Shown: positions 1 through 25,077 of the stretch, one piece after another | Position numbering within the stretch: the first letter of the stretch is position 1 | How the letters are laid out: the number at the start of each line of letters is the position of its first letter | Source: Muricea muricata | Lineage: Eukaryota > Cnidaria > Anthozoa > Malacalcyonacea > Plexauridae | Length of the DNA: 64,000 nt | Reading direction: 5' to 3' | NCBI GenBank assembly: GCA_963855995.1 | Contig: OY979724.1 | Span: 13,763,032 to 13,827,031, forward strand | Program-made: the position numbers and the translations under genes | Notes under the pieces: generated by a model | Seen by the model: the letters and a program-made list of their open reading frames with translations, nothing else | Told to the model about the DNA's origin: nothing | Databases searched by the model: none

Positions 1-2374
1 ATTTTTACCCATTAAAATATAAATTTGTGTTCAATCATTCGTGTTTGTCATTATTTGACTTTGTAATGTTGGTTAAACATAAGGAGATTGAGGTGACTTT
101 GCCAGAAACAAAAACATCCATTATTATACTAAAATTTCAATATATGTAGCAATTAAAACTAACCACAGGAAATATATTTCTACTTTTTAATTGAAATGTT
201 TCTGTTATATGCACTATATCATATTTTTGATAAAAAATTACAACACCTATGTTATTTCCTGGTTTACTATCTCAATCATCTTTTGTTTAAGCTGGCTTTG
301 AGTGTTCATTTGAAAGTTTGGAAAGTTCATTTGAAAATCACAATAGTTCTCAATGTTATATTGGACCCTTTAAAGTTAAAAAAATACTTTGTAATATTTT
401 ATACTACTGGTAATTTATCTTAGATACAGACTTTGTGATTTTGTACTAGAATGTTGACTTTCAAACTTTAAGATGAACTACTTATTAAGGACAAAATAAG
501 CTAGCATATTGTCTTTTGTTTACAAAGTGGAACTTGTTTGGAATTGAGATGAACTGATGCAGTTGTTCTTTAACTTTATCAATTAATTAATTACATATCT
601 TAAATGAAAAAGAAAACCACAACTTGCCAAATAAATTCTGTGGGCTCTTTTTATTAGCAAAGAAAAGATGTGGCGGATGTAAGAATTTAAGAGTAAAAAA
701 GTTTCCTTGGACTAAAAAAATTGACAGTATGCCAGATTTTCTAGATAAACAAGCAGTACAGATGTTGGCCAATAATAAGTATAAGTAACTACAATTTTTA
801 ATTTTAAAAGTTTTCTATTGATGCCTGGATACAGTAAATACTTTACCAGAGTTCTTCGTATTGCATCGACTTGAAAAAGTTTTAAGTCACATGAAGCTTT
901 TAGTTGATACTATGCAATTTCAAATTTTACAGACTTCTTAATTAACATGCCAAATTTACCTTGTTGAACATAAGGTCTTTCCTGAGAAAAAGTAAAACTG
1001 TCTGGCATTATATGGAGTAGAATAATTTAAATTAGTTTGAGACTTTGATTTGATAACAATTTTGATTTGTACTGTTTACAATACAAGTGACCGGGTTGTA
1101 TCGGATATACAAACCCAAGCTGAAGGCGAGATATCTGACATACACAGATGCGAATGTTGTAAATGGCTTGTGAAACTCGTCAATTTTATACATCAGATCT
1201 ATAGCAAAGTGATTTTGAAAATACCGATTCTGTAAGATGAGAAAATGATTTCTTTTGTGTTTCCTGTATGATTTATTACTTTATAAGTTTCTTAATTAAA
1301 ATTACAACATATTGCCTACTGGAACTTTTTATATTGTTTGGTTGTGGTGAATTTGTATTTTGGCAATTGAAATATTTCTGAATTTGTATGTGCATTTCCT
1401 TTGCTTCAGTTCAAGTTTACATTTCAAATATTCCACTTTGTAATACTTGCGTGGTAATAATAATATAAGAAAACAGGTTTACATGGCTCTTGAATATAGT
1501 CTTTTCAACAAGTAAGTAAAGATGAATTTATACTTCAAAGAGATATGTTCCTAACCTGACAATGGTACCTTCCAAAAAGACTAAATTTAAATTGATTCTT
1601 CGAATAAATTTTTTACTTTTCAATCCAAGATCAATCTAAGTTATGTATTTCTACTTTTATTTTGGTCTCTTTAACACTGAAACTATCAATTGTATATAAA
1701 GCAACTTCACTATCGAGTGACTTCATTAGTTGCTGGGCAAAGCCAAAGCATTGATTTTTCGGCTGTTTTCAATGAAAAATAGAATTTTGCCCAAAGTTAT
1801 CTCAAATAAATTATCACAATTTGAACAAAAAGCTTCTGTTCTTGTGCCCACCAGAAAAATGAGATGTCTGAGACTTTCTTTGTATTTTTTTGCGAAAAAT
1901 AGATCGCATGCACTGTTATGCAAAGAAAAGTGTAAGAGATTGGTTTCTGAAAAATGTCGTGCTACACACAATATTCTAAAAATGCTTGGTTTTTATTCTA
2001 TGTATTTTTGAATTTTTTGTTAAAAGAAATAAAGGTAGCAATGTTTAGTGCATTTCACATTGTCAGGTTAGAAACGCAATAAGAAAAATGTGGCTCCGAA
2101 CATTACAGCTTGGTCAATTTGGAATTTATAAAAAAATCGTTTCTTCGTTGTTTTTCGACGTTTTGAAGGGTTGTTTCGAGTACAAAAAAGTATTTTTAGG
2201 AAGAATTATGTGCCCACGTTACATGTCTCAAAGCCATCAAAATTCGTTGGTAATTCGTGCATGTATTTTTTCTGACTTATAAAAGCACAATTGATTAAAA
2301 ATAATATTTTTCTTTTGACAAAAATACCTTTCTTCTGTGAGGCTGGCTGTATTTGAAAAAGCGTTGGTCAACGC

Positions 2375-2446
2375 TCCGCCAAAACTCGTGGGTTTTCTCC
2401 GGGTACTCCGGTTCTTCCCACTGGGAGAGTTGACAGGGTAGTTACA
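2375..2446 (+). repeat. SINE core-like fragment (arm A)
   Basis: The stretch contains a GTGGGTTTTCTCCGGGTACT core followed by a GGGAGAGTTGACAGGGT-type segment. From memory this resembles a core found in several invertebrate tRNA-derived SINEs; no tRNA-like head is visible here. The mirror copy lies at about 21,902-21,972. Confidence 0.5.
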
Positions 2447-2921
2447 TATGGTTATAAAAATGTGACTAACTTTTGAAAACCTTTCTACTTAGACTTGTTA
2501 GCCTTCTCGTCATCTCTATCAGTTGCATGTTTTGAGCCACATGTTTTTCTTTGTAATTGTGAAACAACTCGTTATATGCTGGGTAAACCTTTGCAAAACT
2601 CTCAAAATTTATCACTTCAAGTTGTTTCATTGTTATAATATATTTTGAAGTATAAACATTTACTTACGTTGAAAAGACCCAAGTTTTTTAGGACTTTGTT
2701 CATTCACTTGTGTTATTGTTCTCTCTGCCATGTTCTGTTTTCTTCTGTTGTTATTTTAATAAGTACAATGTGTGGTAGTTAATCTCTTTTTATTGTTATT
2801 CAAATTGTATGTAATCTTTACAAATTTTTTCAATAAATTGTTTACAAAATTTACTTGTGACCCCTTTTTAATTAAAAATTCAATTCCCATGGGAATTGAG
2901 AAATTGAATAAAAAAAATCCC

Positions 2922-3040
2922 CCTACCCCGGCCAGCTCCCCAAGTGCCACTTCCACCTAAGTAGAAGTACTTATACATGTAGTACAAGTACTTCTACTTA
3001 TTCACGGTGGAAGTAGCACTCGGAGAACTGGCCGGGGTAG
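2922..3040. repeat. Fold-back element (arm A)
   Basis: Outer inverted repeats begin CTACCCCGGCCAG and end CTGGCCGGGGTAG. The inner arms AAGTAGAAGTACTT and AAGTACTTCTACTT surround a short loop. The mirror copy is at about 21,306-21,424. No coding capacity. Confidence 0.75.
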
Positions 3041-3211
3041 CCGGCAAAGAGAAGACCAACTTTGCAAGTGCTAATACAATTGCTAAGTTGATCTTCCCTA
3101 GAGAGCAGCCGCGCGTACCTAACAAATTAAAACAACAAACGTTAGTGACTTAAGTACTTAGCATGCAAATTTGATTCCCAAAGCCAAAATGTCAAGTGCC
3201 CCCCGCTGATC

Positions 3212-3367
3212 CTACCAACTGCCTACCTGCCTCAGTTCTAAGCTGTCTTCCTCAGTTCTAAGCTCCTGCATTCCATTCGTTACCTTCACTTTCCTCACCA
3301 TCGCACAGTCACTCACAGCTGATAAACCCGCATGCACCACCACCACCACCCCGACTGCCACCCAATT
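3212..3367 (-). pseudogene. Decayed terminal exon of a membrane protein (arm A)
   Basis: On the minus strand this reads NWVAVGVVVVVHAG, then ...CAMVRKVKVTNGMQEL and a stop. It matches the better-preserved exon at 37,410-37,547. In the arm copies the acceptor dinucleotide is lost (TTTTCG instead of TTCCAG) and an Asp falls inside the hydrophobic stretch. Most differences from the 37.4-kb copy change the amino acid. It reads as a non-functional relic of a transmembrane helix plus short cytosolic tail. The family was not recognised. Confidence 0.45.
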
Positions 3368-3878
3368 TCGAAAATTAAAAGAGTTAAAATTTCGGTAAAG
3401 TATGCATTTTAAATGCAATTTATTTGGATATTTTAGATCAAACGTAAACAGAAAAAGCTCGTACATAAAAACAGGTGAGAATTCTATTTAAAATTTGCTT
3501 GCAAAATATAAAACCTAATTCGCATTTTTCTTAGTTAATAGTATAGATCAATTTAGTTGATGTTGAAACCTACTCTTAACTGTTTTGTTAGAAGTGACGA
3601 CAGATTTTGGTTTTTAAGCATACTTTCAAAAATTTTAATTCCTTTAATAAACCTAATCCCATGCAACTTACACACGGCGCACACCCTCGCAGTCCATACA
3701 TTTAGCTAATAAATTACGTTATAAACAAAAAAGCAAAATAAAAAGATAAATTACGTTATCTCTAGCTACTTAAACCCACTTAGACTGAGTTTTTGATTGA
3801 ATTTTCAAACGTAAAACCTTAGCTGAATGGGCATGGGCTTTTCGTTGTGTTAACTGTTCCGGAGTAAATATAAACCTG

Positions 3879-4118
3879 GGGCCGGTTGTATCAAAGGCGT
3901 TTAGCTTAAACGGTGGATAAGTGAAATTTAAAAATCAGTTTTACACCTAGTACGGAACCGAAATTATGAGTTGAAATAGAATAAATATTTAGTTTTATAT
4001 ATAATTGTTCTTCTCAGGTCAAATAACTTCAGCTGGTTTGTTTATACAACATGGAAACGTGTTTCATATTTTTGACTTATCCACCGTTTAAGCTAAACGC
4101 CTTTGATACAACCGGCCC
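3879..4118. mobile_element. MITE with GGGCCGGTTG terminal inverted repeats (arm A)
   Basis: The terminal repeats are about 44 bp. They begin GGGCCGGTTGTATCAAAGG and contain TTAAACGGTGGATAAGT. CTG flanks both ends, giving a likely 3-bp target duplication. The interior is short and non-coding. The related locus near 36.48-36.92 kb carries a different insertion at the equivalent point. Mirror copy: 20,231-20,470. Confidence 0.85.
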
Positions 4119-4622
4119 CTGATACTTACCAAAGTCCAAGGCTGGGTCAAATAAGCATGAGAATTAGGCAAAAATAAAAAGCAATTGAAACTCAACAGAT
4201 CCACTAAAGTTGTTTTTTTTTTTGGCAACTTATATCCTTAAGTGTAGATGACATGCAATTTTTAATGCCGTAATTCTCACACTTATTTAACCGAAACGCC
4301 TTCATTTGCATGGTACCTCGCAGCTGCTCTCAAACCACCTTCGTAATTTGCTTTAGTGTACACAAACAATGACTTCATTGTTCCTGCTTACCAAAACAAA
4401 TCTGAAAGCACCAAGATACTTATCATATTAATAATCAAAGAGGATTCGCATTATGCAGTAATTACCATAAACAGACGCATCACCATTGAAACAAAGCATG
4501 CCGTATTCCCATGGGAATTTAAAATGCACAAAAAAATATAATGATCCTACTGATTTGCATGGATGTATGAACCAAATTAGCTAAGAAACAAAGAAATGAT
4601 ATATTCCCTTGGGAATTTAATG

Positions 4623-4850
4623 TAGCAAAAAGATGGCGGTTGTTGATTTTACCAGAATGCCTTGCGGTCTGAAATCGTTTAAAAACTTAAGGTAAATTAA
4701 CCTCGTTTGAGGAACAGACAGATAGGTTATTTTGTCACTTGTGTTAAAATTCCGTCCATTAGCTTATCTTAAATATCATTTCACTGGTATTCTTGATTGA
4801 TACCCGCATTAAATTCTGGTAAAATCGACATGCCACCATCTGTTTTGCTA
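4623..4850. mobile_element. MITE with TAGCAAAA...GATGG termini (arm A)
   Basis: The terminal inverted repeats are imperfect and about 40 bp, running from TAGCAAAAAGATGGCGG to TTTTACCAGAATGC. A diverged third copy lies at 25,199-25,433, and the mirror copy is at 19,499-19,726. Non-coding. Confidence 0.75.
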
Positions 4851-5754
4851 CGGTGAATTGGAATACAAGTCACATTTTCTCGCTTTTTAACCAGAGAACA
4901 CATTCTTTAAAGGTAGAACGACGGAATTGATCGTTTGCAATCGACGCCATCTTTGTTGACGTTTGAAACACATGGCAACCACAAAGTATCTATTCATTAT
5001 ATCTGATCCTATCGAGCCATACATCTTTAAAGTATCATTCATAATACGCTAAAACTAACGATGAAATAGTAAATTGACACAAGTGTTTCGCTGTAAACAG
5101 CTGAAGTAATCTGCAGAGTCAACCAAGATGGCGCCCAATCACACGAAATGACGTCATGTGCAAACCAAGAATAGTGACAAAATGCATCAACTATAATTTA
5201 GTGGCATTATTACGAAACTTATTTTTGTAAAACGTTCAATCCTACATGTTATTTTGTTTTGTTTTTAGAAATATCCAAATCCAAATGTTAGAGACGAAAT
5301 TTCCAGGCGTTAAGGTATTGTTTCTTTAAAAAATATTGTCGACATTTACCATATTTTTACCTGTTTTTTGACTCGAAAATTGACTGCCAAACTCCTAGAT
5401 ATTCTATTTAATTATTTTGTTGAATGTATTTGATATCAATGTTATTTCAATCCAATTTTTTTCACTTAATTTGCTGTCTTTTCTTTTTCATTAACGAGAA
5501 ATATCTATTAAATCCTCTTTGATCCCTCAATAATAAGTATCTTGTTTTCTACTAACTTGCTCATTACCACTACTTTCTATTACAATGTCGTGTCTTCTTA
5601 TTCTTGTGGATTGTTGTTTTGTGGGTCTTGCCGTCCAGGATCGTTCATTCTTTTCTCTTCTTGTGCGTTTTTTTCACATCTCATCACCCTTTGCAATAGT
5701 AGAAAGAATTAAGTCATGAGATGATAGTTACGAATAATTTATAAACTATAACAT

Positions 5755-5876
5755 GATAAGTTTCTTGTACGTTTGCATGGTGAATACAATATACTTATTA
5801 AGCTTTGTGGAAACACCACGTAAATTTATTATTGCAATAATAAATTTACGTGGTGTTTCCACAAAGCTTAATAAGT
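5755..5876. mobile_element. Short Penelope-like fold-back insertion with 12-bp TSD (arm A)
   Basis: The inverted halves, with TAAGCTTTGTGGAAACACC at their outer ends, meet directly at TTATTGCAATAA. The insertion is flanked by the 12-bp direct repeat AAACTATAACAT (5,743-5,754 and 5,877-5,888). It is a deleted version of the element at 33,901-34,424, which carries hammerhead-like motifs in the interior that is missing here. The mirror copy is at about 18,473-18,594. Confidence 0.8.
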
Positions 5877-5896
5877 AAACTATAACATATTAAGCA

Positions 5897-6038
5897 CTTA
5901 TTTGATGAGGTTTTTGTGATATGCGAAATGATCAATGTCGAGGTAAGAGTTATCAGCCGAGCCGAAGGCGAGTCAGATAACTCTTACCAAGACATTGATA
6001 ATTTTGCATATCACAAAAACCGAATCCGATAATTGCTT
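5897..6038. repeat. Fold-back element with GCCGAAGGCGAG centre (arm A)
   Basis: Arms of about 55 bp (GATATGCGAAATGATCAATG paired with CATTGATAATTTTGCATATC, and GGTAAGAGTTATC paired with GATAACTCTTACC) flank a centre reading GCCGAGCCGAAGGCGAG. Mirror at about 18,311-18,452. Non-coding. Confidence 0.7.
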
Positions 6039-6258
6039 TATTATAAATTGTAAGTCTTTTTCCTCGAGCAATTGACGAATTTCGCCTTCGGAAGAGCTTA
6101 AAAAGCAAGATGCCATAACATGAAACAGAAAATATCGAAAAAATGTTGTTGCCATGCCAACCATTGATGCCAACGAATACCGCATACTGTAATAATCTGC
6201 ACCGTAGGCTCAACATGCAGATAACTCAGTTATCTGCTAGCAGATAACTGAGCCATAG

Positions 6259-6471
6259 AATAAGAATACATAGAAGGGCCACTCGCGTCGGAGCCTTTGG
6301 AGTTTTTGAAGCCGCGCATGTCGCATTACGCACGTTATTAGCATTTTCTCAGCCAGTCAATTACATTTTCTGGCCAATAGGAATGCTGAACTGGCTGGTG
6401 GCAGCCAGTAAACTGCATAAACATAGTGTGACATGTTGCACTGCTGAGTGGCCCTTCTATGTATTCTTATT
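6259..6471. mobile_element. MITE with 26-bp TIRs (arm A)
   Basis: Perfect 26-bp terminal inverted repeats start AATAAGAATACATAGAAGGG. The element sits inside a larger palindromic tract rich in CAGATAACTGAG, at about 6,190-6,500. No coding capacity. Mirror: 17,878-18,090. Confidence 0.85.
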
Positions 6472-6572
6472 GTATGACTGAGTTATCTGCAGATTGTGTG
6501 ATAGTCGCATTTATCTGCATACAACTGACCAATCACAACGCATAAAACAACTGCAATGTATAGTAATTAACA

Positions 6573-6676
6573 CTTATTGACTGAGACCGAGGGAAACAGT
6601 ATGTTTTGTGGACCAGAGACTGTCGATGTCGAGGGTCCACAAAACATACTGCTTTCCCGAGGTCTCAGTCAATAAG
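6573..6676. repeat. Hairpin with CTTATTGACTGAGACC arms (arm A)
   Basis: Near-complete 104-bp inverted repeat. The left arm CTTATTGACTGAGACC continues to TATGTTTTGTGGACC, and the right arm is its complement with a few changes. It directly abuts the MITE at 6,677. Mirror at 17,673-17,776. Confidence 0.8.
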
Positions 6677-6935
6677 TATTTTATTATATACTGAGTGCCA
6701 AAAGAGAAGAAAAGTACCACAAATCAATCAAACATGTGTAAAAAGGATTACCTTTTACCTGACATGGCTACGTGAGGCTTTGTGGATTTGTTGTCTACCG
6801 GTGAATAAAAGTAATGTCCACCGCTTAGCTACGTTGCCAGGGAGACAATAGAATTTCTCCACTATCACGTGATACGTTCTTAACCAGTAAGAAACAGGAA
6901 TAAATGAACTTTGACACTCAGTATATTATAAAATA
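6677..6935. mobile_element. MITE with TATTTTATTATATACTGAGT termini (arm A)
   Basis: Terminal inverted repeats of about 21 bp (TATTTTATTATATACTGAGT at the left, its complement with one change at the right). It is adjacent to the hairpin at 6,573-6,676. Interior non-coding. Mirror at about 17,414-17,672. Confidence 0.75.
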
Positions 6936-8687
6936 GTATTAATTAGGCCGGCCAAATTATTGTGTAAGCTGTTAATATGAAATTTTTTTGTTAAAATCTC
7001 GAGAATCATTAATAAATCGTGAGCAAAACACAAAAGAAAATCATAGCCGTGAAGGAGTCTTTATTTCTCACACGCACACAACTTGCAGCTACCCTAATTT
7101 ATGAATTTAGATTAAAATATCTCGAGAATTAAACAACACGTAAGGAATGTGTAAATTCTTAAAGCTCTTTCGAACAATAAAAATTAATATCTCGCACTAA
7201 TCTCTCTCAAAAGCTCTCTCAAATTTATTGCCGATATCTCTTTGAGAATTACTGTGCACGTGAAATGTAACTTATATCAAAACTAGCTTACTTCAAGCTG
7301 TTTGGGAATCAAGATTTTACGTGTCAACGAGATCAAATATGAATCTAAGATGGCAGACAGCGCATTAAATTTCTATCTTTACGACCAACTCCCCAACGAA
7401 AGGCTTTAATTCGCTCGAAAGTCGAATTTTGTTTTTTTTTATTGTTTCAGGTAGTGAAAGATCCTGTGTGCTTTTTACAGTACTACCGACACTAGCAACG
7501 TTAGTGCGAGATGTTAATTTTTATTGAAACAAAAGCTGAACTGCTAAAAAAATGGAAACGACAAGATAAAATAAAAAAACTTACTTTCACTCTATCTTTG
7601 GATCTTCTTGGCTTCGGTTGTTCTCGTTTCATCATGCTGTTTATGGTTTCATCTGGTTGGCGCACTCTCTTCATGGAGCATCAAGGCGGTCCAGTAGGTA
7701 ACTAGCTCACTCGTGTCCAGTCAACCAACATAAAATAAGGAGAAAATTAATGTTACAAAATATTTTAGAATATAGGACACTAAGCTTTAATTGAATTGAC
7801 TTTAACAAACCGTACATTGTGATAGTATTTGCATCTTAACATCTGATGGAGACGGCTTGTGATTTACTTCTTATGTCGATATGAATTCTTTCCCATCTTG
7901 TTGCGTCATTAGTTGATGGTTGTTGTATTCACTTTTTACTTGGCATTCTTTGAAAAAAAAATTACGATGTTCAGAAAACTGTTTACAAGATAAGCAAAGA
8001 AAACTACGTTCACAAGCATTAGAGAGGACTAAGTAATTATAATAGGCGTGACAGGTCACAGAGGTTAGTCGACGAAGAAACTCATGGACAAATTCCCGGC
8101 ATGATGATACCCCGATAGCAAGAAATACAGCAAGTGTAGAACGTGTACGTGTGAGCTTAAACTGTATGTATGCAACTCCAAGAAAAGCGCAACACAAAAT
8201 GGCGGAATTTAAAGACATTTCTGGTGTCATTTCCAGTTCCCTAACTTTCGCGGACAAATATATTTATATATTTTTCTCAAATTTTTTTGAAGTAAATCTA
8301 GATGGATTTTGTGAATAAACAAATTAAAAAAAGTATTGCCCACGTTAGGAAACTAGAACGGGCGCCCAAGAATGCCCACAATTTCTCCAATCTGGATTAT
8401 ATTTATTGATTGCGCAAATGACTGATAAAAAATAAGAGAGTAATAAAATACCAAATGGTTTCCTCTTCAAGATAGTGTCATACATGCGCGCGGCATTTCG
8501 GGATATTTGGGAAAACTCGTGTTGAAGTTGAACCTAAGGCAACATGCCAAGTACATGGATGACGCTATCCTGCTCAGGAAACTATTTAGTAATTGTCTTA
8601 CAAAATGATGACAGTGAAACACAAGTCAACGCCACGGCATTTAAATTTCTCGTGTAGGATTGTTTGATCCTGCACAGTAATAGCCAA

Positions 8688-8850
8688 GTGGCGCAATCGT
8701 CAGAGCAAACGCCTATCACATGTGAGGTCGTGGGTTCAATCCTTACTTCAGACTCGTGACACCCATGTGAGGAGTTAGTCAGTCGTGGGTTTATCCCGGG
8801 TACTCCGGTTTGCGAATGTTGACTGGATGGTTAAAATTGTAAAATATCAG
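8688..8850 (+). mobile_element. tRNA-derived SINE (arm A)
   Basis: The head is tRNA-like, with an A-box-like TGGCGCAATCGTCAGAGC and, about 35 bp later, a B-box GGTTCAATCC, as in RNA polymerase III promoters. The body contains CGTGGGTTTATCCCGGGTAC, related to the core at 2,375. Arm B (about 15,507-15,661) carries an 8-bp deletion in the body. There is no intact tRNA cloverleaf, so this is a SINE and not a tRNA gene. Confidence 0.65.
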
Positions 8851-10577
8851 TAATCACCGGAACACGGGTACTTAACTAAACTGCTGACGATGAGGCGGAA
8901 CTCATAATGAATTAATGAAATGTGTTTCACTGTAGTTATCATATAATGTAATTGCCAAGCTGAATGAATAATTCTCCAGTAACTACGTCATATGAATAAT
9001 TTACAATTATGAGAGTAGTGGGGGGGGGGGCAGCATAAAGATTGAAGTAGTGTCAAGGAAGGGGTACTACCCTCACGGGTACTAGGCGAAGAAGTAGAGT
9101 AAACAGGAGGAAGAAAATTAAATTGGAGTAAATAAGGGGGATTGGGGTAAAGAAGGGGAGAAGCAGGATAAAGAAACCAGTGGAAGGGGGTGCTATCCTG
9201 GAAGGAGTACCCGGGAAAGAAGAGGGTGAACAGGAGGAAAAGTAGATTGGAGTACAGAAAGGGGAAATTAAACGGATCAGGAAATTCAAACTTGCAATTC
9301 AAATGAAAGGCAGCTCATTGGTCATGTAAACACTCGTTAAATCATGGTTCTCGCTTGCCTTTAGCTTGGAATCATCTTTGAATTTGAACTGAAAGTCTGA
9401 ATTTGCATGTTTCTTGTATAGAGTGCAGTGTATCAGAACAGAAGAGGTTTTGAAGAAAAAGAAAGAAAGAATAAAAGTAAGTTAAAATTTGTAAAGAATA
9501 ATGAAGAAACTATTGGTACAGCACTTGATACATGATGATAATCATCATTATAAACTCTCTATTAATCCGGGGGGGGGGTATAATAGAGAATTTGCAATGA
9601 TAGTAAGTATATTGTAATATTTGGGTTTTTACCACTAAATCCTCTTGAAAGTTCTTTTTGGCTGTGGCTTCTCTCATCACAGTTGTCTGTGCTTGTCTTG
9701 CAAAATCTCTGGAATATCTATAACGTGAAGGTCAATATTTAAGATTAGAAAAATAGAAACCGTAAAATAGAAAGAAATTTAAATCGTGGCGAATACTTTT
9801 TACGGTCTTGCTGGCATGACAAAAAGAGAGTATAGATTTATAAGATCATGTTGATTTATCCTTTATCTGAACTATATTTAACTTAGATTTTAAAATAAAT
9901 TTCACCCTGGTAAGCAGACCGAATGGGTTTTCAAACAAGATAACATTTAATGACTAAAACGTGCACAGAATAGTTAGAGAATGCTTACATGTCGAATAAA
10001 AATCCAATACTTTTAATGTCCAACTACACAATAGCGATTTTCGTTGCATTTCTAGACTGGAGAAGAAGACGACGCCATTTTGATTTTGATTTCTCCCGAC
10101 AACGGCAGATTTGTCTTCGCAATTTTTTTCCATTTCTTCGTCGTTTTAGCTCCAATTTGCTCGTTGTGTTTCTTTCGTACCTTCCTCGCCATTTCCGTAC
10201 AATCAATGGACATTTATACTCAAGATTAAGACTGTATTGAGACTTTCAAAATGTTCGTCAGGAGACATAAAAATCGAAGCTTCTTCTTCGGGTTGCAGAA
10301 GCAAATGACGTCAGACGACCTTTGTCCGCCAGCAAATACCCGTATGTATAACATTCAATGATCTTTTTAGGAAGCTGAAAATCAGTTTTTATTGCGCGAA
10401 CGAAATGTTTTTGCCATTATTTCTTACTCAGGTCTTTGTTCTACTACTTTACTTCCAGTTTAGTTAGGTAACTTGATAAAAGAAACGCCTGTAAGGGACA
10501 ATTTTGCATTTTTTTTTATTTCGATGCTGATGAAGAAGAGAAGACTCGTTAGAGCTTTCATTGGCAAATATCTTTCC

Positions 10578-10645
10578 CTCCGTGGCCGAGAGGTAAAGAC
10601 AACTGTCTTGACTTCGATTTTGGGTGGATCGAGGACCGGTCCAGT
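10578..10645 (+). repeat. Possible tRNA-like SINE head (arm A)
   Basis: TGGCCGAGAGGTAAAGAC resembles a Ser/Leu-type tRNA A-box. The downstream B-box is poor. Overlapping it, 10,617-10,701 is an inverted repeat (TTTTGGGTGGATCGAGGACC against its complement with changes). Mirror at about 13,708-13,775. Weak call. Confidence 0.3.
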
Positions 10646-10850
10646 TCAACTGAGTTTGGTAAGAATTTAATTCTGATCGGTGCTCGATCCACCCAAAACT
10701 GAATTCAAAGCTGGGCGTGGAGTGCAGGAAAACACTAGGCAGTACCGCGAGGCCAAGGAGGCAAACGTTATTTTCCTAGTGTTGTTAACTAATATTTAAG
10801 CAAATTTCATTAACTTGACTGTTGGGGACAGACCTGTAGGGTTGGTGCAT

Positions 10851-12477: not shown

Positions 12478-15400
12478 GAGCGCCAAGCTTCATCGACTAT
12501 CGTTGATCGAGGGAAATGGTAGTTTGCTGAGCAGTAACAGGTTGGTTTTACGACTCACCGATAAAATGCGTTATGTACAAGCTGTAAGTCTCAAACGTTC
12601 CCATCGGTAGAGAATACAAATGTCGTTGGTGGGATCAATTCTTTCCTATCAAGGATAAAGCTTGGCGGTCGTAGCTTATATGGTTATGGCACAAGAAAAC
12701 TGCATTGCCGCCGTTGTTTTACAATTCCGAGCTACAACATTAACAGTGTCAGTAATGTTTAAAACCCGGCAACCTTGAAAACAAGTTGATTTTACGACCG
12801 AACTGCAGTTTCCTTGTGACACAACCTATAAAATCCATTATGTACAAGCTGTGAGTTGGAAACGTTCCTATTGGCAGTGAACATAAGTGTCCATTGTAGG
12901 ATCAATAGTTACCTATCAAGGATATCTTGACGCTCGTAGCTTATATAAAACCACGCGTTCTACAGTGCCATCTTGTTATCTCATTGGAAGAGCAAAACAC
13001 TGCCATTCAGTGTTTGGGAATTAAACCCAAGGCCATAAGTATATGGCTCCTATATCAAGGACACTGAACACAATGGCATATAATGCTCGATCAAGAAAGA
13101 AACGACTGACGGAAAGTTAATAATAATGATGCAAAATTTTACTTTTCCTCTTGCAAAGATCTGGTAAAAGATCGTTAAACATAGCTGAAGTACTTAAAAC
13201 ATGACTAGACGGCTTTGATTTAGTAAGCGTTGTCGTCCTTGATTCTTTCCTAAAAGAAAACACTTGCTTTCAAGGCTTTAATGTGTTTGCGCATCTTTGC
13301 GCATCCATGGTCGTACCGTAAGCGTTAGGAAGAAGTCAGCCATATATTATTGGCACAGTGTAGTAGTTTAGCTAGCTAAACCACTACACTGTAGCTTTAA
13401 AGTGTAGTGGTTTAGTGGTGTCTTGAAGTCTTTTCGTCGTTATTTCTCGATGAAGACAACTTGTCTTCTTGAACGAAGGGAAATAACGACGAGAAGTCTT
13501 CAATGCACCAACCCTACAGGTCTGTCCCCAACAGTCAAGTTAATGAAATTTGCTTAAATATTAGTTAACAACACTAGGAAAATAACGTTTGCCTCCTTGG
13601 CCTCGCGGTACTGCCTAGTGTTTTCCTGCACTCCACGCCCAGCTTTGAATTCAGTTTTGGGTGGATCGAGCACCGATCAGAATTAAATTCTTACCAAACT
13701 CAGTTGAACTGGACCGGTCCTCGATCCACCCAAAATCGAAGTCAAGACAGTTGTCTTTACCTCTCGGCCACGGAGGGAAAGATATTTGCCAATGAAAGCT
13801 CTAACGAGTCTTCTCTTCTTCATCAGCATCGAAATAAAAAAAAATGCAAAATTGTCCCTTACAGGCGTTTCTTTTATCAAGTTACCTAACTAAACTGGAA
13901 GTAAAGTAGTAGAACAAAGACCTGAGTAAGAAATAATGGCAAAAACATTTCGTTCGCGCAATAAAAACTGATTTTCAGCTTCCTAAAAAGATCATTGAAT
14001 GTTATACATACGGGTATTTGCTGGCGGACAAAGGTCGTCTGACGTCATTTGCTTCTGCAACCCGAAGAAGAAGCTTCGATTTTTATGTCTCCTGACGAAC
14101 ATTTTGAAAGTCTCAATACAGTCTTAATCTTGAGTATAAATGTCCATTGATTGTACGGAAATGGCGAGGAAGGTACGAAAGAAACACAACGAGCAAATTG
14201 GAGCTAAAACGACGAAGAAATGGAAAAAAATTGCGAAGACAAATCTGCCGTTGTCGGGAGAAATCAAAATCAAAATGGCGTCGTCTTCTTCTCCAGTCTA
14301 GAAATGCAACGAAAATCGCTATTGTGTAGTTGGACATTAAAAGTATTGGATTTTTATTCGACATGTAAGCATTCTCTAACTATTCTGTGCACGTTTTAGT
14401 CATTAAATGTTATCTTGTTTGAAAACCCATTCGGTCTGCTTACCAGGGTGAAATTTATTTTAAAATCTAAGTTAAATATAGTTCAGATAAAGGATAAATC
14501 AACATGATCTTATAAATCTATACTCTCTTTTTGTCATGCCAGCAAGACCGTAAAAAGTATTCGCCACGATTTAAATTTCTTTCTATTTTACGGTTTCTAT
14601 TTTTCTAATCTTAAATATTGACCTTCACGTTATAGATATTCCAGAGATTTTGCAAGACAAGCACAGACAACTGTGATGAGAGAAGCCACAGCCAAAAAGA
14701 ACTTTCAAGAGGATTTAGTGGTAAAAACCCAAATATTACAATATACTTACTATCATTGCAAATTCTCTATTATACCCCCCCCCCCGGATTAATAGAGAGT
14801 TTATAATGATGATTATCATCATGTATCAAGTGCTGTACCAATAGTTTCTTCATTATTCTTTACAAATTTTAACTTACTTTTATTCTTTCTTTCTTTTTCT
14901 TCAAAACCTCTTCTGTTCTGATACACTGCACTCTATACAAGAAACATGCAAATTCAGACTTTCAGTTCAAATTCAAAGATGATTCCAAGCTAAAGGCAAG
15001 CGAGAACCATGATTTAACGAGTGTTTACATGACCAATGAGCTGCCTTTCATTTGAATTGCAAGTTTGAATTTCCTGATCCGTTTAATTTCCCCTTTCTGT
15101 ACTCCAATCTACTTTTCCTCCTGTTCACCCTCTTCTTTCCCGGGTACTCCTTCCAGGATAGCACCCCCTTCCACTGGTTTCTTTATCCTGCTTCTCCCCT
15201 TCTTTACCCCAATCCCCCTTATTTACTCCAATTTAATTTTCTTCCTCCTGTTTACTCTACTTCTTCGCCTAGTACCCGTGAGGGTAGTACCCCTTCCTTG
15301 ACACTACTTCAATCTTTATGCTGCCCCCCCCCCCCCCACTACTCTCATAATTGTAAATTATTCATATGACGTAGTTACTGGAGAATTATTCATTCAGCTT

Positions 15401-18400
15401 GGCAATTACATTATATGATAACTACAGTGAAACACATTTCATTAATTCATTATGAGTTCCGCCTCATCGTCAGCAGTTTAGTTAAGTACCCGTGTTCCGG
15501 TGATTACTGATATTTTACAATTTTAACCATCCAGTCAACATTCGAGTACCCGGGATAAACCCACGACTGACTAACTCCTCACATGGGTGTCACGAGTCTG
15601 AAGTAAGGATTGAACCCACGACCTCACATGTGATAGGCGTTTGCTCTGACGATTGCGCCACTTGGCTATTACTGTGCAGGATCAAACAATCCTACACGAG
15701 AAATTTAAATGCCGTGGCGTTGACTTGTGTTTCACTGTCATCATTTTGTAAGACAATTACTAAATAGTTTCCTGAGCAGGATAGCGTCATCCATGTACTT
15801 GGCATGTTGCCTTAGGTTCAACTTCAACACGAGTTTTCCCAAATATCCCGAAATGCCGCGCGCATGTATGACACTATCTTGAAGAGGAAACCATTTGGTA
15901 TTTTATTACTCTCTTATTTTTTATCAGTCATTTGCGCAATCAATAAATATAATCCAGATTGGAGAAATTGTGGGCATTCTTGGGCGCCCGTTCTAGTTTC
16001 CTAACGTGGGCAATACTTTTTTTAATTTGTTTATTCACAAAATCCATCTAGATTTACTTCAAAAAAATTTGAGAAAAATATATGAAATATATTTGTCCGC
16101 GAAAGTTAGGGAACTGGAAATGACACCAGAAATGTCTTTAAATTCCGCCATTTTGTGTTGCGCTTTTCTTGGAGTTGCATACATACAGTTTAAGCTCACA
16201 CGTACACGTTCTACACTTGCTGTATTTCTTGCTATCGGGGTATCATCATGCCGGGAATTTGTCCATGAGTTTCTTCGTCGACTAACCTCTGTGACCTGTC
16301 ACGCCTATTATAATTACTTAGTCCTCTCTAATGCTTGTGAACGTAGTTTTCTTTGCTTATCTTGTAAACAGTTTTCTGAACATCGTAATTTTTTTTTCAA
16401 AGAATGCCAAGTAAAAAGTGAATACAACAACCATCAACTATGACGCAACAAGATGGGAAAGAATTCATATCGACATAAGAAGTAAATCACAAGCCGTCTC
16501 CATCAGATGTTAAGATGCAAATACTATCACAATGTACGGTTTGTTAAAGTCAATTCAATTAAAGCTTAGTGTCCTATATTCTAAAATATTTTGTAACATT
16601 AATTTTCTCCTTATTTTATGTTGGTTGACTGGACACGAGTGAGCTAGTTACCTACTGGACCGCCTTGATGCTCCATGAAGAGAGTGCGCCAACCAGATGA
16701 AACCATAAACAGCATGATGAAACGAGAACAACCGAAGCCAAGAAGATCCAAAGATAGAGTGAAAGTAAGTTTTTTTATTTTATCTTGTCGTTTCCATTTT
16801 TTTAGCAGTTCAGCTTTTGTTTCAATAAAAATTAACATCTCGCACTAACGTTGCTAGTGTCGGTAGTACTGTAAAAAGCACACAGGATCTTTCACTACCT
16901 GAAACAATAAAAAAAAACAAAATTCGACTTTCGAGCGAATTAAAGCCTTTCGTTGGGGAGTTGGTCGTAAAGATAGAAATTTAATGCGCTGTCTGCCATC
17001 TTAGATTCATATTTGATCTCGTTGACACGTAAAATCTTGATTCCCAAACAGCTTGAAGTAAGCTAGTTTTGATATAAGTTACATTTCACGTGCACAGTAA
17101 TTCTCAAAGAGATATCGGCAATAAATTTGAGAGAGCTTTTGAGAGAGATTAGTGCGAGATATTAATTTTTATTGTTCGAAAGAGCTTTAAGAATTTACAC
17201 ATTCCTTACGTGTTGTTTAATTCTCGAGATATTTTAATCTAAATTCATAAATTAGGGTAGCTGCAAGTTGTGTGCGTGTGAGAAATAAAGACTCCTTCAC
17301 GGCTATGATTTTCTTTTGTGTTTTGCTCACGATTTATTAATGATTCTCGAGATTTTAACAAAAAAATTTCATATTAACAGCTTACACAATAATTTGGCCG
17401 GCCTAATTAATACTATTTTATAATATACTGAGTGTCAAAGTTCATTTATTCCTGTTTCTTACTGGTTAAGAACGTATCACGTGATAGTGGAGAAATTCTA
17501 TTGTCTCCCTGGCAACGTAGCTAAGCGGTGGACATTACTTTTATTCACCGGTAGACAACAAATCCACAAAGCCTCACGTAGCCATGTCAGGTAAAAGGTA
17601 ATCCTTTTTACACATGTTTGATTGATTTGTGGTACTTTTCTTCTCTTTTGGCACTCAGTATATAATAAAATACTTATTGACTGAGACCTCGGGAAAGCAG
17701 TATGTTTTGTGGACCCTCGACATCGACAGTCTCTGGTCCACAAAACATACTGTTTCCCTCGGTCTCAGTCAATAAGTGTTAATTACTATACATTGCAGTT
17801 GTTTTATGCGTTGTGATTGGTCAGTTGTATGCAGATAAATGCGACTATCACACAATCTGCAGATAACTCAGTCATACAATAAGAATACATAGAAGGGCCA
17901 CTCAGCAGTGCAACATGTCACACTATGTTTATGCAGTTTACTGGCTGCCACCAGCCAGTTCAGCATTCCTATTGGCCAGAAAATGTAATTGACTGGCTGA
18001 GAAAATGCTAATAACGTGCGTAATGCGACATGCGCGGCTTCAAAAACTCCAAAGGCTCCGACGCGAGTGGCCCTTCTATGTATTCTTATTCTATGGCTCA
18101 GTTATCTGCTAGCAGATAACTGAGTTATCTGCATGTTGAGCCTACGGTGCAGATTATTACAGTATGCGGTATTCGTTGGCATCAATGGTTGGCATGGCAA
18201 CAACATTTTTTCGATATTTTCTGTTTCATGTTATGGCATCTTGCTTTTTAAGCTCTTCCGAAGGCGAAATTCGTCAATTGCTCGAGGAAAAAGACTTACA
18301 ATTTATAATAAAGCAATTATCGGATTCGGTTTTTGTGATATGCAAAATTATCAATGTCTTGGTAAGAGTTATCTGACTCGCCTTCGGCTCGGCTGATAAC

Positions 18401-20230
18401 TCTTACCTCGACATTGATCATTTCGCATATCACAAAAACCTCATCAAATAAGTGCTTAATATGTTATAGTTTACTTATTAAGCTTTGTGGAAACACCACG
18501 TAAATTTATTATTGCAATAATAAATTTACGTGGTGTTTCCACAAAGCTTAATAAGTATATTGTATTCACCATGCAAACGTACAAGAAACTTATCATGTTA
18601 TAGTTTATAAATTATTCGTAACTATCATCTCATGACTTAATTCTTTCTACTATTGCAAAGGGTGATGAGATGTGAAAAAAACGCACAAGAAGAGAAAAGA
18701 ATGAACGATCCTGGACGGCAAGACCCACAAAACAACAATCCACAAGAATAAGAAGACACGACATTGTAATAGAAAGTAGTGGTAATGTGCAAGTTAGTAG
18801 AAAACAAGATACTTATTATTGAGGGATCAAAGAGGATTTAATAGATATTTCTCGTTAATGAAAAAGAAAAGACAGCAAATTAAGTGAAAAAAATTGGATT
18901 GAAATAACATTGATATCAAATACATTCAACAAAATAATTAAATAGAATATCTAGGAGTTTGGCAGTCAATTTTCGAGTCAAAAAACAGGTAAAAATATGG
19001 TAAATGTCGACAATATTTTTTAAAGAAACAATACCTTAACGCCTGGAAATTTCGTCTCTAACATTTGGATTTGGATATTTCTAAAAACAAAACAAAATAA
19101 CATGTAGGATTGAACGTTTTACAAAAATAAGTTTCGTAATAATGCCACTAAATTATAGTTGATGCATTTTGTCACTATTCTTGGTTTGCACATGACGTCA
19201 TTTCGTGTGATTGGGCGCCATCTTGGTTGACTCTGCAGATTACTTCAGCTGTTTACAGCGAAACACTTGTGTCAATTTACTATTTCATCGTTAGTTTTAG
19301 CGTATTATGAATGATACTTTAAAGATGTATGGCTCGATAGGATCAGATATAATGAATAGATACTTTGTGGTTGCCATGTGTTTCAAACGTCAACAAAGAT
19401 GGCGTCGATTGCAAACGATCAATTCCGTCGTTCTACCTTTAAAGAATGTGTTCTCTGGTTAAAAAGCGAGAAAATGTGACTTGTATTCCAATTCACCGTA
19501 GCAAAACAGATGGTGGCATGTCGATTTTACCAGAATTTAATGCGGGTATCAATCAAGAATACCAGTGAAATGATATTTAAGATAAGCTAATGGACGGAAT
19601 TTTAACACAAGTGACAAAATAACCTATCTGTCTGTTCCTCAAACGAGGTTAATTTACCTTAAGTTTTTAAACGATTTCAGACCGCAAGGCATTCTGGTAA
19701 AATCAACAACCGCCATCTTTTTGCTACATTAAATTCCCAAGGGAATATATCATTTCTTTGTTTCTTAGCTAATTTGGTTCATACATCCATGCAAATCAGT
19801 AGGATCATTATATTTTTTTGTGCATTTTAAATTCCCATGGGAATACGGCATGCTTTGTTTCAATGGTGATGCGTCTGTTTATGGTAATTACTGCATAATG
19901 CGAATCCTCTTTGATTATTAATATGATAAGTATCTTGGTGCTTTCAGATTTGTTTTGGTAAGCAGGAACAATGAAGTCATTGTTTGTGTACACTAAAGCA
20001 AATTACGAAGGTGGTTTGAGAGCAGCTGCGAGGTACCATGCAAATGAAGGCGTTTCGGTTAAATAAGTGTGAGAATTACGGCATTAAAAATTGCATGTCA
20101 TCTACACTTAAGGATATAAGTTGCCAAAAAAAAAAACAACTTTAATGGATCTGTTGAGTTTCAATTGCTTTTTATTTTTGCCTAATTCTCATGCTTATTT
20201 GACCCAGCCTTGGACTTTGGTAAGTATCAG

Positions 20231-20470
20231 GGGCCGGTTGTATCAAAGGCGTTTAGCTTAAACGGTGGATAAGTCAAAAATATGAAACACGTTTCCATGT
20301 TGTATAAACAAACCAGCTGAAGTTATTTGACCTGAGAAGAACAATTATATATAAAACTAAATATTTATTCTATTTCAACTCATAATTTCGGTTCCGTACT
20401 AGGTGTAAAACTGATTTTTAAATTTCACTTATCCACCGTTTAAGCTAAACGCCTTTGATACAACCGGCCC
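20231..20470. mobile_element. MITE with GGGCCGGTTG terminal inverted repeats (arm B)
   Basis: Mirror of 3,879-4,118, flanked by CAG on both sides. The outer sequence (GGTAAGTATCAG to the left, CAGGTTTATATTTAC to the right) aligns with 36,475-36,486 and 36,916-36,931, which supports the boundaries. Confidence 0.85.
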
Positions 20471-20981
20471 CAGGTTTATATTTACTCCGGAACAGTTAAC
20501 ACAACGAAAAGCCCATGCCCATTCAGCTAAGGTTTTACGTTTGAAAATTCAATCAAAAACTCAGTCTAAGTGGGTTTAAGTAGCTAGAGATAACGTAATT
20601 TATCTTTTTATTTTGCTTTTTTGTTTATAACGTAATTTATTAGCTAAATGTATGGACTGCGAGGGTGTGCGCCGTGTGTAAGTTGCATGGGATTAGGTTT
20701 ATTAAAGGAATTAAAATTTTTGAAAGTATGCTTAAAAACCAAAATCTGTCGTCACTTCTAACAAAACAGTTAAGAGTAGGTTTCAACATCAACTAAATTG
20801 ATCTATACTATTAACTAAGAAAAATGCGAATTAGGTTTTATATTTTGCAAGCAAATTTTAAATAGAATTCTCACCTGTTTTTATGTACGAGCTTTTTCTG
20901 TTTACGTTTGATCTAAAATATCCAAATAAATTGCATTTAAAATGCATACTTTACCGAAATTTTAACTCTTTTAATTTTCGA

Positions 20982-21134
20982 AATTGGGTGGCAGTCGGGG
21001 TGGTGGTGGTGCATGCGGGTTTATCAGCTGTGAGTGACTGTGCGATGGTGAGGAAAGTGAAGGTAACGAATGGAATGCAGGAGCTTAGAACTGAGGAAGA
21101 CAGCTTAGAACTGAGGCAGGTAGGCAGTTGGTAG
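20982..21134 (+). pseudogene. Decayed terminal exon of a membrane protein (arm B)
   Basis: Mirror copy of 3,212-3,367, with one fewer Val codon in the GTG run. The same acceptor loss and the same Asp in the hydrophobic stretch are present, so the decay predates the palindrome. It is weakly open through to a TAG. No evidence of expression can be seen. Confidence 0.45.
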
Positions 21135-24100
21135 GATCAGCGGGGGGCACTTGACATTTTGGCTTTGGGAATCAAATTTGCATGCTAAGTACTTAAGTCA
21201 CTAACGTTTGTTGTTTTAATTTGTTAGGTACGCGCGGCTGCTCTCTAGGGAAGATCAACTTAGCAATTGTATTAGCACTTGCAAAGTTGGTCTTCTCTTT
21301 GCCGGCTACCCCGGCCAGTTCTCCGAGTGCTACTTCCACCGTGAATAAGTAGAAGTACTTGTACTACATGTATAAGTACTTCTACTTAGGTGGAAGTGGC
21401 ACTTGGGGAGCTGGCCGGGGTAGGGGGATTTTTTTTATTCAATTTCTCAATTCCCATGGGAATTGAATTTTTAATTAAAAAGGGGTCACAAGTAAATTTT
21501 GTAAACAATTTATTGAAAAAATTTGTAAAGATTACATACAATTTGAATAACAATAAAAAGAGATTAACTACCACACATTGTACTTATTAAAATAACAACA
21601 GAAGAAAACAGAACATGGCAGAGAGAACAATAACACAAGTGAATGAACAAAGTCCTAAAAAACTTGGGTCTTTTCAACGTAAGTAAATGTTTATACTTCA
21701 AAATATATTATAACAATGAAACAACTTGAAGTGATAAATTTTGAGAGTTTTGCAAAGGTTTACCCAGCATATAACGAGTTGTTTCACAATTACAAAGAAA
21801 AACATGTGGCTCAAAACATGCAACTGATAGAGATGACGAGAAGGCTTAACAAGTCTAAGTAGAAAGGTTTTCAAAAGTTAGTCACATTTTTATAACCATA
21901 TGTAACTACCCTGTCAACTCTCCCAGTGGGAAGAACCGGAGTACCCGGAGAAAACCCACGAGTTTTGGCGGAGCGTTGACCAACGCTTTTTCAAATACAG
22001 CCAGCCTCACAGAAGAAAGGTATTTTTGTCAAAAGAAAAATATTATTTTTAATCAATTGTGCTTTTATAAGTCAGAAAAAATACATGCACGAATTACCAA
22101 CGAATTTTGATGGCTTTGAGACATGTAACGTGGGCACATAATTCTTCCTAAAAATACTTTTTTGTACTCGAAACAACCCTTCAAAACGTCGAAAAACAAC
22201 GAAGAAACGATTTTTTTTATAAATTCCAAATTGACCAAGCTGTAATGTTCGGAGCCACATTTTTCTTATTGCGTTTCTAACCTGACAATGTGAAATGCAC
22301 TAAACATTGCTACCTTTATTTCTTTTAACAAAAAATTCAAAAATACATAGAATAAAAACCAAGCATTTTTAGAATATTGTGTGTAGCACGACATTTTTCA
22401 GAAACCAATCTCTTACACTTTTCTTTGCATAACAGTGCATGCGATCTATTTTTCGCAAAAAAATACAAAGAAAGTCTCAGACATCTCATTTTTCTGGTGG
22501 GCACAAGAACAGAAGCTTTTTGTTCAAATTGTGATAATTTATTTGAGATAACTTTGGGCAAAATTCTATTTTTCATTGAAAACAGCCGAAAAATCAATGC
22601 TTTGGCTTTGCCCAGCAACTAATGAAGTCACTCGATAGTGAAGTTGCTTTATATACAATTGATAGTTTCAGTGTTAAAGAGACCAAAATAAAAGTAGAAA
22701 TACATAACTTAGATTGATCTTGGATTGAAAAGTAAAAAATTTATTCGAAGAATCAATTTAAATTTAGTCTTTTTGGAAGGTACCATTGTCAGGTTAGGAA
22801 CATATCTCTTTGAAGTATAAATTCATCTTTACTTACTTGTTGAAAAGACTATATTCAAGAGCCATGTAAACCTGTTTTCTTATATTATTATTACCACGCA
22901 AGTATTACAAAGTGGAATATTTGAAATGTAAACTTGAACTGAAGCAAAGGAAATGCACATACAAATTCAGAAATATTTCAATTGCCAAAATACAAATTCA
23001 CCACAACCAAACAATATAAAAAGTTCCAGTAGGCAATATGTTGTAATTTTAATTAAGAAACTTATAAAGTAATAAATCATACAGGAAACACAAAAGAAAT
23101 CATTTTCTCATCTTACAGAATCGGTATTTTCAAAATCACTTTGCTATAGATCTGATGTATAAAATTGACGAGTTTCACAAGCCATTTACAACATTCGCAT
23201 CTGTGTATGTCAGATATCTCGCCTTCAGCTTGGGTTTGTATATCCGATACAACCCGGTCACTTGTATTGTAAATAGTACAAATCAAAATTGTTATCAAAT
23301 CAAAGTCTCAAACTAATTTAAATTATTCTACTCCATATAATGCCAGACAGTTTTACTTTTTCTCAGGAAAGACCTTATGTTCAACAAGGTAAATTTGGCA
23401 TGTTAATTAAGAAGTCTGTAAAATTTGAAATTGCATAGTATCAACTAAAAGCTTCATGTGACTTAAAACTTTTTCAAGTCGATGTAATACGAAGAACTCT
23501 GGTAAAGTATTTACTGTATCCAGGCATCAATAGAAAATTTTTAAAATTAAAAATTGTAGTTACTTATACTTATTATTGGCCAACATCTGTACTGCTTGTT
23601 TATCTAGAAAATCTGGCATACTGTCAATTTTTTTAGTCCAAGGAAACTTTTTTACTCTTAAATTCTTACATCCGCCACATCTTTTCTTTGCTAATAAAAA
23701 GAGCCCACAGAATTTATTTGGCAAGTTGTGGTTTTCTTTTTCATTTAAGATATGTAATTAATTAATTGATAAAGTTAAAGAACAACTGCATCAGTTCATC
23801 TCAATTCCAAACAAGTTCCACTTTGTAAACAAAAGACAATATGCTAGCTTATTTTGTCCTTAATAAGTCGTTCATCTTAAAGTTTGAAAGTCAACATTCT
23901 AGTACAAAATCACAAAGTCTGTATCTAAGATAAATTACCAGTAGTATAAAATATTACAAAGTATTTTTTTAACTTTAAAGGGTCCAATATAACATTGAGA
24001 ACTATTGTGATTTTCAAATGAACTTTCCAAACTTTCAAATGAACACTCAAAGCCAGCTTAAACAAAAGATGATTGAGATAGTAAACCAGGAAATAACATA

Positions 24101-24348
24101 GGTGTTGTAATTTTTTATCAAAAATATGATATAGTGCATATAACAGAAACATTTCAATTAAAAAGTAGAAATATATTTCCTGTGGTTAGTTTTAATTGCT
24201 ACATATATTGAAATTTTAGTATAATAATGGATGTTTTTGTTTCTGGCAAAGTCACCTCAATCTCCTTGTGTTTAACCAACATTACAAAGTCAAATAATGA
24301 CAAACACGAATGATTAAACACAAATTTATATTTTAATGGGTAAAAATA

Positions 24349-25076: not shown

Positions 25077-25077
25077 C

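Follow-up and report, generated by a model that had tools for sequence, protein, structure and literature searches.

Canonical Helitrons carry TC at the 5′ end and CTRR at the 3′ end and insert between A and T, and gene-capturing Helitrons of maize reach 39 kb. Read-through capture has been documented for Helraiser, in which one terminator is bypassed and the next serves as the stop. Helentron-associated elements are recognized by subterminal inverted repeats of 11–15 bp near both termini, a short inverted repeat that overlaps or adjoins the 5′ subterminal repeat, a stem-loop that follows the 3′ subterminal repeat near the terminus, insertion at TT with no target-site duplication, and, in some copies, tandem repeats between the modules; autonomous Helentrons encode a Rep/helicase (plus endonuclease) protein and have the same termini. 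In mite HINEs, the subterminal repeat lies 2–4 nt from the 5′ end and 38–60 bp from the 3′ end. These accounts and the comparisons below draw on passages of PMC12870357, PMC6218980, PMC3907307, PMC5490193, PMC8981503, PMC4067079, PMC4778049, PMC7492417 and PMC6431247. The locus considered here lies in a 64,000-nucleotide stretch of the Muricea muricata genome (the window).

As a preliminary description had noted, the window contains a near-perfect palindrome: self-BLAST pairs positions 1–11671 with 24347–12682 at 99.76% identity, and the inner 213 bp of the arms are 97.2% identical. Within the window, the arms span 1–11902 and 12478–24347 and are separated by a 575-bp loop. The 24-kb extent given at that time was too small, as its outer limits were imposed by the window and not by the DNA; flanking DNA carries the arms of this copy (P1) to −1882 and 26230, giving full arms of ~13.8 kb each (Table 1). 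The 5′ end of the element, TTACTCCGCCTGCC..., is found at −2487 (C9:13760544). Longer copies carry a 3′ HINE that P1 lacks beyond arm B1, and the MITE-like cluster situated there may be either host sequence or a truncation scar.

Table 1. Coordinates of the P1 palindrome and of element insertions. Positions refer to the window unless a contig is named; 0 is the base immediately left of window base 1.
Feature	Position	Strand	Remark
Left palindrome arm A1	1..11902	+	extends left to −1882
Loop, 575 bp	11903..12477	+	present at centre only
Fold-back junction	12477..12478	.	our own reading of the sequence
Right palindrome arm B1	12478..26230	-	inverted copy of A1; P1 end at 26230
R repeat in arm A1	11053..11369	+	
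R repeat in loop	12101..12418	-	
R repeat, arm B1 copy	12984..13300		
Short palindromic (MITE-like) repeat cluster	26230..26976	.	just outside arm B1
Insertion locus of element	C5:15726817-15756311		
Insertion locus of element	C5:8998687-9028895		
Insertion locus of element	C7:14038490-14067257		

By our reading, arm A1 continues into the loop as unbroken S-R repeat sequence, and on the other side a truncated R-type repeat abuts the inverted arm. An inverted microhomology (GTTGT/ACAAC) lies 2–3 bases from the fold-back junction. The R repeat of the loop is inverted relative to that of arm A1 and 84% identical to it; the R1/R2 inverted repeats were considered as the fold-back site and rejected, given that the junction falls outside both. 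Within the window, the arms differ by 13 substitutions (nine transitions and four transversions), a count that omits three further mismatches at the loop edge, and by the 8-bp, 25-bp, 3-bp and homopolymer indels reported previously. The substitutions are unevenly spread, with six in the outer 1.1 kb, three in the middle 10.6 kb and four in the inner 207 bp (Fisher p = 5e-8 for edges vs middle, with zones picked post hoc). We agree with the earlier view that the arms are two copies of DNA and not one molecule read twice. The arms were also said to lack an intact gene, and 10 arm and loop frames gave only sub-threshold Pfam matches at the curated cut-off; no transposase was found, and one arm frame returned three matches, without names, from a protein collection. 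A search of the window for tRNAs and Rfam families at curated thresholds returned none.

The palindrome belongs to a family of about 260 copies across the genome that are near-identical wherever sampled. In the 453-Mb assembly, a 37-mer from the loop has 262 exact matches (143 + 119) and one from the arm has 519 (260 + 259), roughly twice the loop count; the reversed control 37-mers for loop and arm each have none. Among the arm matches listed, 94 of 100 fall in +/− pairs ~10.26 kb apart (9480–10447 bp). The 681-bp centre is present at full length and 100% identity (rounded) at all 40 places scored, which were drawn from 1640 first-look candidates. Probes ~12 kb from the centre match the arm within 0.8 kb of the predicted position in 29 of 30 cases across 15 other copies, comprising 20/20 in 10 copies chosen from the 40 and 9/10 in five copies chosen from the loop matches. 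Full-length reading covered two copies, P1 and P2. A single window cannot reveal such a dispersed family, which is absent from the preliminary description.

The 5′ end was read at 10 ends in eight copies, with outside sequence that varies between copies, and the 3′ end in three of these eight. The three copies with both ends measure 29495, 30209 and 28768 bp. The dispersal of ~260 copies, together with defined ends in those read, points to a mobile element and not merely to a local inverted duplication. Its termini are TTACTCC... and ...CTTGTT. The former was initially read, from its hairpin, as the 3′ end; that assignment was reversed in the light of the published HINE architecture. Subterminal inverted repeats of 12 bp lie 2 nt from the 5′ end (ACTCCGCCTGCC) and, in reverse-complement form, 24 nt inside the 3′ terminus. 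Beside the 5′ repeat is a nested inverted repeat, ACTCCGCCT ... AGGCGGAGT, whose fold was computed, and the 3′ repeat is followed by a stem-loop (ACGCCT-TAGC-AGGCGT) 6 nt from the end. A tandem array of 12.1 copies of a 31-bp unit lies between the modules in L034, and its sequence recurs in L057, L061 and L065. None of the three copies with both ends has a target duplication of at least 3 bp; one of them is situated inside a T/A run, and TT stands at the element ends.

In 5′ to 3′ order, a full copy would begin with a HINE 5′ module of ~540 bp, made up of the subterminal repeat and the nested inverted repeat. A short linker would follow, then one arm, the 575-bp loop, the other arm in inverted orientation and finally a complete HINE. 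The terminal HINE, a block of ~1.9 kb assembled from parts of different copies, would have its own 5′ module, the 31-bp tandem array and the 3′ stem-loop end. The sequence at the predicted outer limits is mixed. Five of eight 3-kb stretches hold the outer end of the arm; L034 and L036 have HINE sequence in its place, and L029 has neither. Among ten 501-bp stretches, five contain the 5′ end and three the HINE array, in L059 a 5′ module sits internally and abuts the arm, and L060 has none of these.

A second copy, P2, lies 177 kb from P1 on contig C9. The two share flanking DNA, in a D segment (99.7%) and an E segment, so one copying step was segmental; the left side of P2 carries deletions. A four-arm comparison yields 21 interior sites that are alike within each palindrome and different between them, and a simulation without conversion yields none; differences that distinguish one arm from the other in P1 and P2 alike occur only near the edges. 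In this single pair, the arms show 18 and 16 differences within palindromes vs 31–39 between them. Thus, arm-to-arm gene conversion, proposed earlier from the high identity as an alternative to a recent origin, is supported by the P1–P2 pair, with a computed conversion:mutation ratio of ~4700. The loop is found in both orientations relative to the element ends.

We consider it probable (about 0.7) that a giant non-autonomous element of the Helentron/HINE type has this palindrome as its body, and that the element arose by read-through capture of a fold-back palindrome and was then amplified. One fold-back replication event would have created the palindrome, and all 40 scored centres span the same junction, which argues that it was made once. 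A HINE that had lost its 3′ terminator may then have read through the palindrome to the terminator of the next HINE, and a putative Helentron protein encoded elsewhere could have amplified the chimera. Within each copy, the arms would undergo gene conversion and an occasional crossover that flips the loop, and P1 itself would have lost its 3′ HINE. Several observations count against this model, among them the mixed sequence at the predicted outer limits. In the copies at C8:11.77 Mb and C4:3.57 Mb, each end carries a 5′ module and a 3′ end is lacking. The model also does not predict the extra inverted repeat (99.2% identity, 1.9 kb or more) outside the arm at C8:12.885 Mb, nor the ~170 bp of flank mirrored at C8:11.77 Mb. 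Replication and single-strand intermediates are regarded as poor at handling very long palindromes, and copying one of 28 kb by way of a single-stranded intermediate ought to be difficult.

An origin in the library or assembly has published precedents: genomic foldbacks in ~0.55–0.6% of ONT reads and, in one Arabidopsis data set, palindromes from whole-genome amplification in 40–50% of reads. Of the eight indels that occur in a single arm, six fall in arm B1 of P1 and none in any P2 arm (a tally that omits the truncation on the left of P2 and the gap at the loop edge), so some may be consensus errors. It had been suggested that base 1 might be a contig start, but the window sits 13.76 Mb into the 14.3-Mb contig C9, neither end of which has a telomere array within 2 kb. 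With this placement and the reading of both flanks, a fold-back read at a contig end and a head-to-head join of haplotypes were dropped. Foldback artefacts lack an independent flank and are symmetric about their midpoint, whereas each P1 arm has its own flank, the two flanks are unlike, and the sequence contains no N. The identical loop at 262 places, the ~2:1 ratio of arm to loop and the edge differences that mark one arm in both P1 and P2 likewise speak against an artefact, amplification chimeras included, which would be a very unlikely source. Local fold-back duplication, spread as segmental duplications and without transposition, was entertained after P2 was found and abandoned as the sole explanation once dispersed centres had been scored. 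It accounts for the shared flanks of P1 and P2, and the single novel junction with a spacer matches the fold-back mechanism published for human inverted duplications. Such a history is likely for the first palindrome and for the P1–P2 pair; as the sole explanation it is largely refuted by loop matches on many contigs and by the like ends and differing flanks of the eight copies with ends read, and overall we regard it as improbable.

It is possible but unlikely that the palindrome is another kind of mobile element, at whose ends HINE modules landed separately; it might be a DNA transposon of the foldback or long-TIR class, or belong to an unfamiliar type. The two copies flanked by 5′ modules on both sides fit this idea, as does HINE-like module sequence elsewhere, beside P1 at ~75% and as a second module at ~90%. 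However, copies diverge exactly at the HINE 5′ end (eight copies) and at the HINE 3′ end (three copies), and target duplications of 3 bp or more are lacking in all three copies that can be scored; cut-and-paste elements usually have a target duplication, in some of only 2 bp. The palindrome could instead be part of transposition itself, as in a hairpin-protected rolling-circle transposon, which we think quite unlikely. The single strand set free by rolling-circle replication would fold back on itself as a hairpin, with a duplex of 13.8 kb and a loop of 575 nt, that shields it, and with each transposition mismatch repair could rewrite one arm to match its partner. If true, this would jointly account for the high copy number, the near-identical arms and both loop orientations.

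Should the capture model hold, it would mean that palindromes of great length can be carried and multiplied by rolling-circle elements. If all copies are full length, the family totals ~7.6 Mb, ~1.7% of the genome. Some 260 palindromes of one family would constitute a very large natural set outside sex chromosomes in which to study stability, conversion between arms and loop inversion, and such loci could also give rise to double-stranded RNA, assembly errors and rearrangements. The openly licensed literature yielded no description of a dispersed long palindrome with rolling-circle ends, and the apparent novelty of the combination rests on that result.

The ends of the element differ from those of canonical Helitrons and resemble those published for HINE, DINE-1 and Cg_HINE: both subterminal repeats, the adjoining 5′ inverted repeat, the 3′ stem-loop and the tandem array in some copies are all present. 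Two differences stand out. The 3′ subterminal repeat is closer to the end than in mite HINEs (24 nt vs 38–60), which counts against the model, and at ~29 kb the element is mainly a near-perfect palindrome, an insert with no counterpart in the HINE passages drawn on. Its size and proposed terminator-bypass route recall the large Helitrons of maize and Helraiser, but the cargo is palindromic, near-identical wherever sampled and without a recognized domain in the frames tested. TIR and foldback transposons have arm-end termini and a target duplication, whereas the two termini differ in the three copies with both ends; in the C8:11.77 Mb and C4:3.57 Mb copies, by contrast, the two sides end alike. 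Teratorn is similarly giant; it has long inverted repeats, and an inversion distinguishes its two subtypes, but nothing like the piggyBac-like transposase, 18-bp TIRs or herpesvirus relation reported in the Teratorn passages was seen here. Primate sex-chromosome palindromes share long arms of >99% identity, a spacer and conversion between arms, and the implied conversion:mutation ratio for primate X palindromes (~4200) is close to ours. Unlike these, the present family is dispersed and high-copy and has transposon-like ends.

The palindrome in the window, P1, is present as the preliminary description had it: self-comparison of the window paired the left arm (A1) with the right arm (B1) at 99.76% identity, with the same indels, and given this length a chance origin of the match is not an issue. 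Besides the indels, base-by-base comparison gave 13 substitutions (nine transitions and four transversions, a count that leaves out three mismatches at the loop edge). Six lie within 1.1 kb at the outer edge, three in the 10.6 kb between the edges and four within 207 bp at the inner edge, the inner 213 bp of the arms being 97.2% identical. The preliminary description had feared an artefact should the contig start at base 1. With 60 kb of left flank added, however, both arms extend further, the sequence is free of N and the flanks beyond the two arms are unlike each other, which excludes a contig-end artefact; P1 is real, and an artefact is very unlikely.

Positions of P1, P2 and neighboring features in window numbering, where 0 immediately precedes base 1 (genome position = 13763031 + x), unless a contig is named
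Feature	Position	Remarks
Window	C9:13763032-13827031	contig C9, 14,285,854 bases
P1 arm pairing in window	1-11671 with 24347-12682
P1 arm limits	-1882 and 26230	with added flank
P2, second palindrome	175487-203381	inverted relative to P1; found within a contiguous 324-kb sequence
D segment	-7227 to -4190	has a directly oriented copy beside P2, 99.7%
Perfect 86-bp palindrome	5792-5877, 18472-18557	in both P1 arms
Inverted repeat, 145 bp	33933-34425	97.9%; related to the 86-bp palindrome
Further inverted repeat pair	27772-29720	395 bp at 93.7%, longer at 86%
Relatives of this pair	166-168 kb, 206-208 kb
SOCS-type gene and CLEC16A C-terminal exon	47873-50026	+ and - strand, adjoining
Gene-rich left flank	-60000 to -10000	stretches L002-L006
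Satellite-like array	C9 ~14.0174-14.0209 Mb (L026 ~363-3880)	period ~126-127 bp, partly inverted

The window also holds split, animal-type genes. Their MBOAT, BTB_2, SH2 and CLEC16A_C domains score above cut-offs; a SOCS box falls slightly short of its own. The adjacency of the SOCS-type gene (SH2 and this SOCS box) to CLEC16A may be an old linkage, as SOCS1 lies next to CLEC16A in human as well. In the left flank, inspection of the frames by eye suggests an ENTH protein of the epsin type, DNA polymerase lambda and COQ7.

The palindrome is a dispersed mobile family in this assembly (453,007,491 bases, 74 contigs). A search with the 681-bp center returned 1640 candidates, and the 40 of these that were scored, spread over contigs C4-C11, all matched at full length and 100% (rounded). 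Exact genome matches numbered 262 for a loop 37-mer (143 + 119) and 519 for an arm 37-mer (260 + 259), with none for either reversed control. Among 100 listed arm places, 94 paired as +/- at spacings of 9480-10447 bp, with a median of 10,260; six had no partner, one of them because the list stopped there. Probes placed ~12 kb out on both sides of 10 copies chosen from the 40 matched arm in 20 of 20 cases (98.3-100%), as did nine of 10 for five copies chosen from the loop list. The tenth (C4:995902) matched arm at another place and orientation, which suggests that it belongs to the next copy, centered ~20 kb from the first; the centers C4:984236 and C4:1004113 are just 20 kb apart in opposite orientation, and these copies apparently overlap or nest. 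Matches displaced by up to ~780 bp from prediction indicate indels in the arms. By extrapolation, and if every copy were full length, the family would account for 1.7% of the genome (~7.6 Mb).

The first end of the element, TTACTCCGCCTGCCGTAGGCGAGGCGGAG..., was seen at 10 ends from eight copies, P1 among these, with unlike sequence beyond it; in P2 it takes a variant form whose hairpin is partly missing. The second end, ...GGCAGGCGGAGTGAACGCCTTAGCAGGCGTCTTGTT, was read in three of eight copies, again with unlike flanks. The copies with both ends read measure 29,495, 30,209 and 28,768 bp, and none of the three shows a target duplication of at least 3 bp. The second-end side carries a 31-bp tandem array and a second first-end module (~90% identical) whose end adjoins the arm at -1428 in stretch L059. 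Pieced together from different copies, the second-end side resembles an entire HINE-like element (HINE, non-autonomous Helentron-associated element) of ~1.9 kb; the opposite side is a 5' module by itself. The loop has one orientation with respect to the ends in P1 (as in P2), C7:14.05 and C6:14.80 Mb; in C5:15.74, C5:9.01, C7:10.99 and C8:10.795 Mb it has the opposite one, the side in the last copy being called from HINE alone. Flipping could occur by crossover between arms or through a hairpin intermediate.

P2 matches P1 at 99.6% over 29,256 bp, inverted, and 620 of 621 bases around the loop are identical in that orientation. Its left side has deletions, and its flank there is common with the left side of P1 despite the inverted core. 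Alignment of all four arms (A1, B1, and A2 and B2 of P2) gave 49 variable sites: 22 private to a single arm, three of abba pattern (-1039, -1000, -580), three of abab pattern (11737, 11776, 11862; a 25-bp indel at 11696 is of the same type) and 21, from 18 to 9898, at which A1=B1 but unlike A2=B2. Differences number 18 and 16 within the two palindromes and 31-39 between them. Because inner differences and the junction are common to both, the palindrome predates the P1-P2 split, and the 21 interior sites therefore require arm-to-arm homogenization, bearing out the gene conversion suggested earlier. A toy simulation whose parameters were picked to fit the data produced 0 such sites when conversion was absent; a single conversion per site since the split yielded an average of 12, and three to 20 conversions yielded 21-26. 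For the arm interior, where d = 0.042%, the relation c = 2 mu/d, which gives the primate X value when applied there, puts conversion at ~4700 times mutation. Of the eight indels confined to a single arm, six fall in B1 and none in the P2 arms (leaving out the P2-left truncation and a loop-edge gap), so some reported P1 arm indels may be consensus error.

By our reading of the sequence, A1 runs into the loop as uninterrupted repeat, the loop-B1 join falls at a cut repeat of the R type found in arms and loop, and a GTTGT/ACAAC inverted microhomology lies near that junction. The palindrome may have been made by a single fold-back event with spacer; human inverted duplications described in PMC3907307 have the same anatomy as the P1 center.

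Putative Helentron-type mobility of the family is well supported by structure (probability roughly 0.7). Several observations do not fit this reading, among them the left side of P2 and mixed results at the outer ends. Three of eight 3-kb stretches at predicted outer limits (L029, L034, L036) lacked an arm end, two of these holding HINE sequence instead, and one of 10 501-bp stretches (L060) had neither end nor HINE. In two copies 5' modules flank both sides, and in one ~170 bp of identical flank is mirrored past the element. At L029/L030 (C8 ~12.87 and 12.90 Mb) an inverted repeat with 99.2% identity and a length of 1.9 kb or more, with no match in the C9 stretch, lies outside the arms; at this locus the palindrome seems to continue into its own flanks, and break-induced extension is a possible reading. 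The mixed results at the outer ends, with the spacing of the 3' subterminal repeat, slightly lower the weight of Helentron-type mobility and raise that of another kind of mobile element, which is still rather unlikely. For a Helentron-type family, the HINE-palindrome chimera would be the expected product of read-through past a missing terminator, as shown for Helraiser (PMC4778049) and reviewed in PMC6431247. The end architecture is like that of HINE/DINE-1 and Cg_HINE in PMC4067079 and PMC7492417, except that the 3' subterminal repeat lies 24 nt from the end here and 38-60 in mite families.
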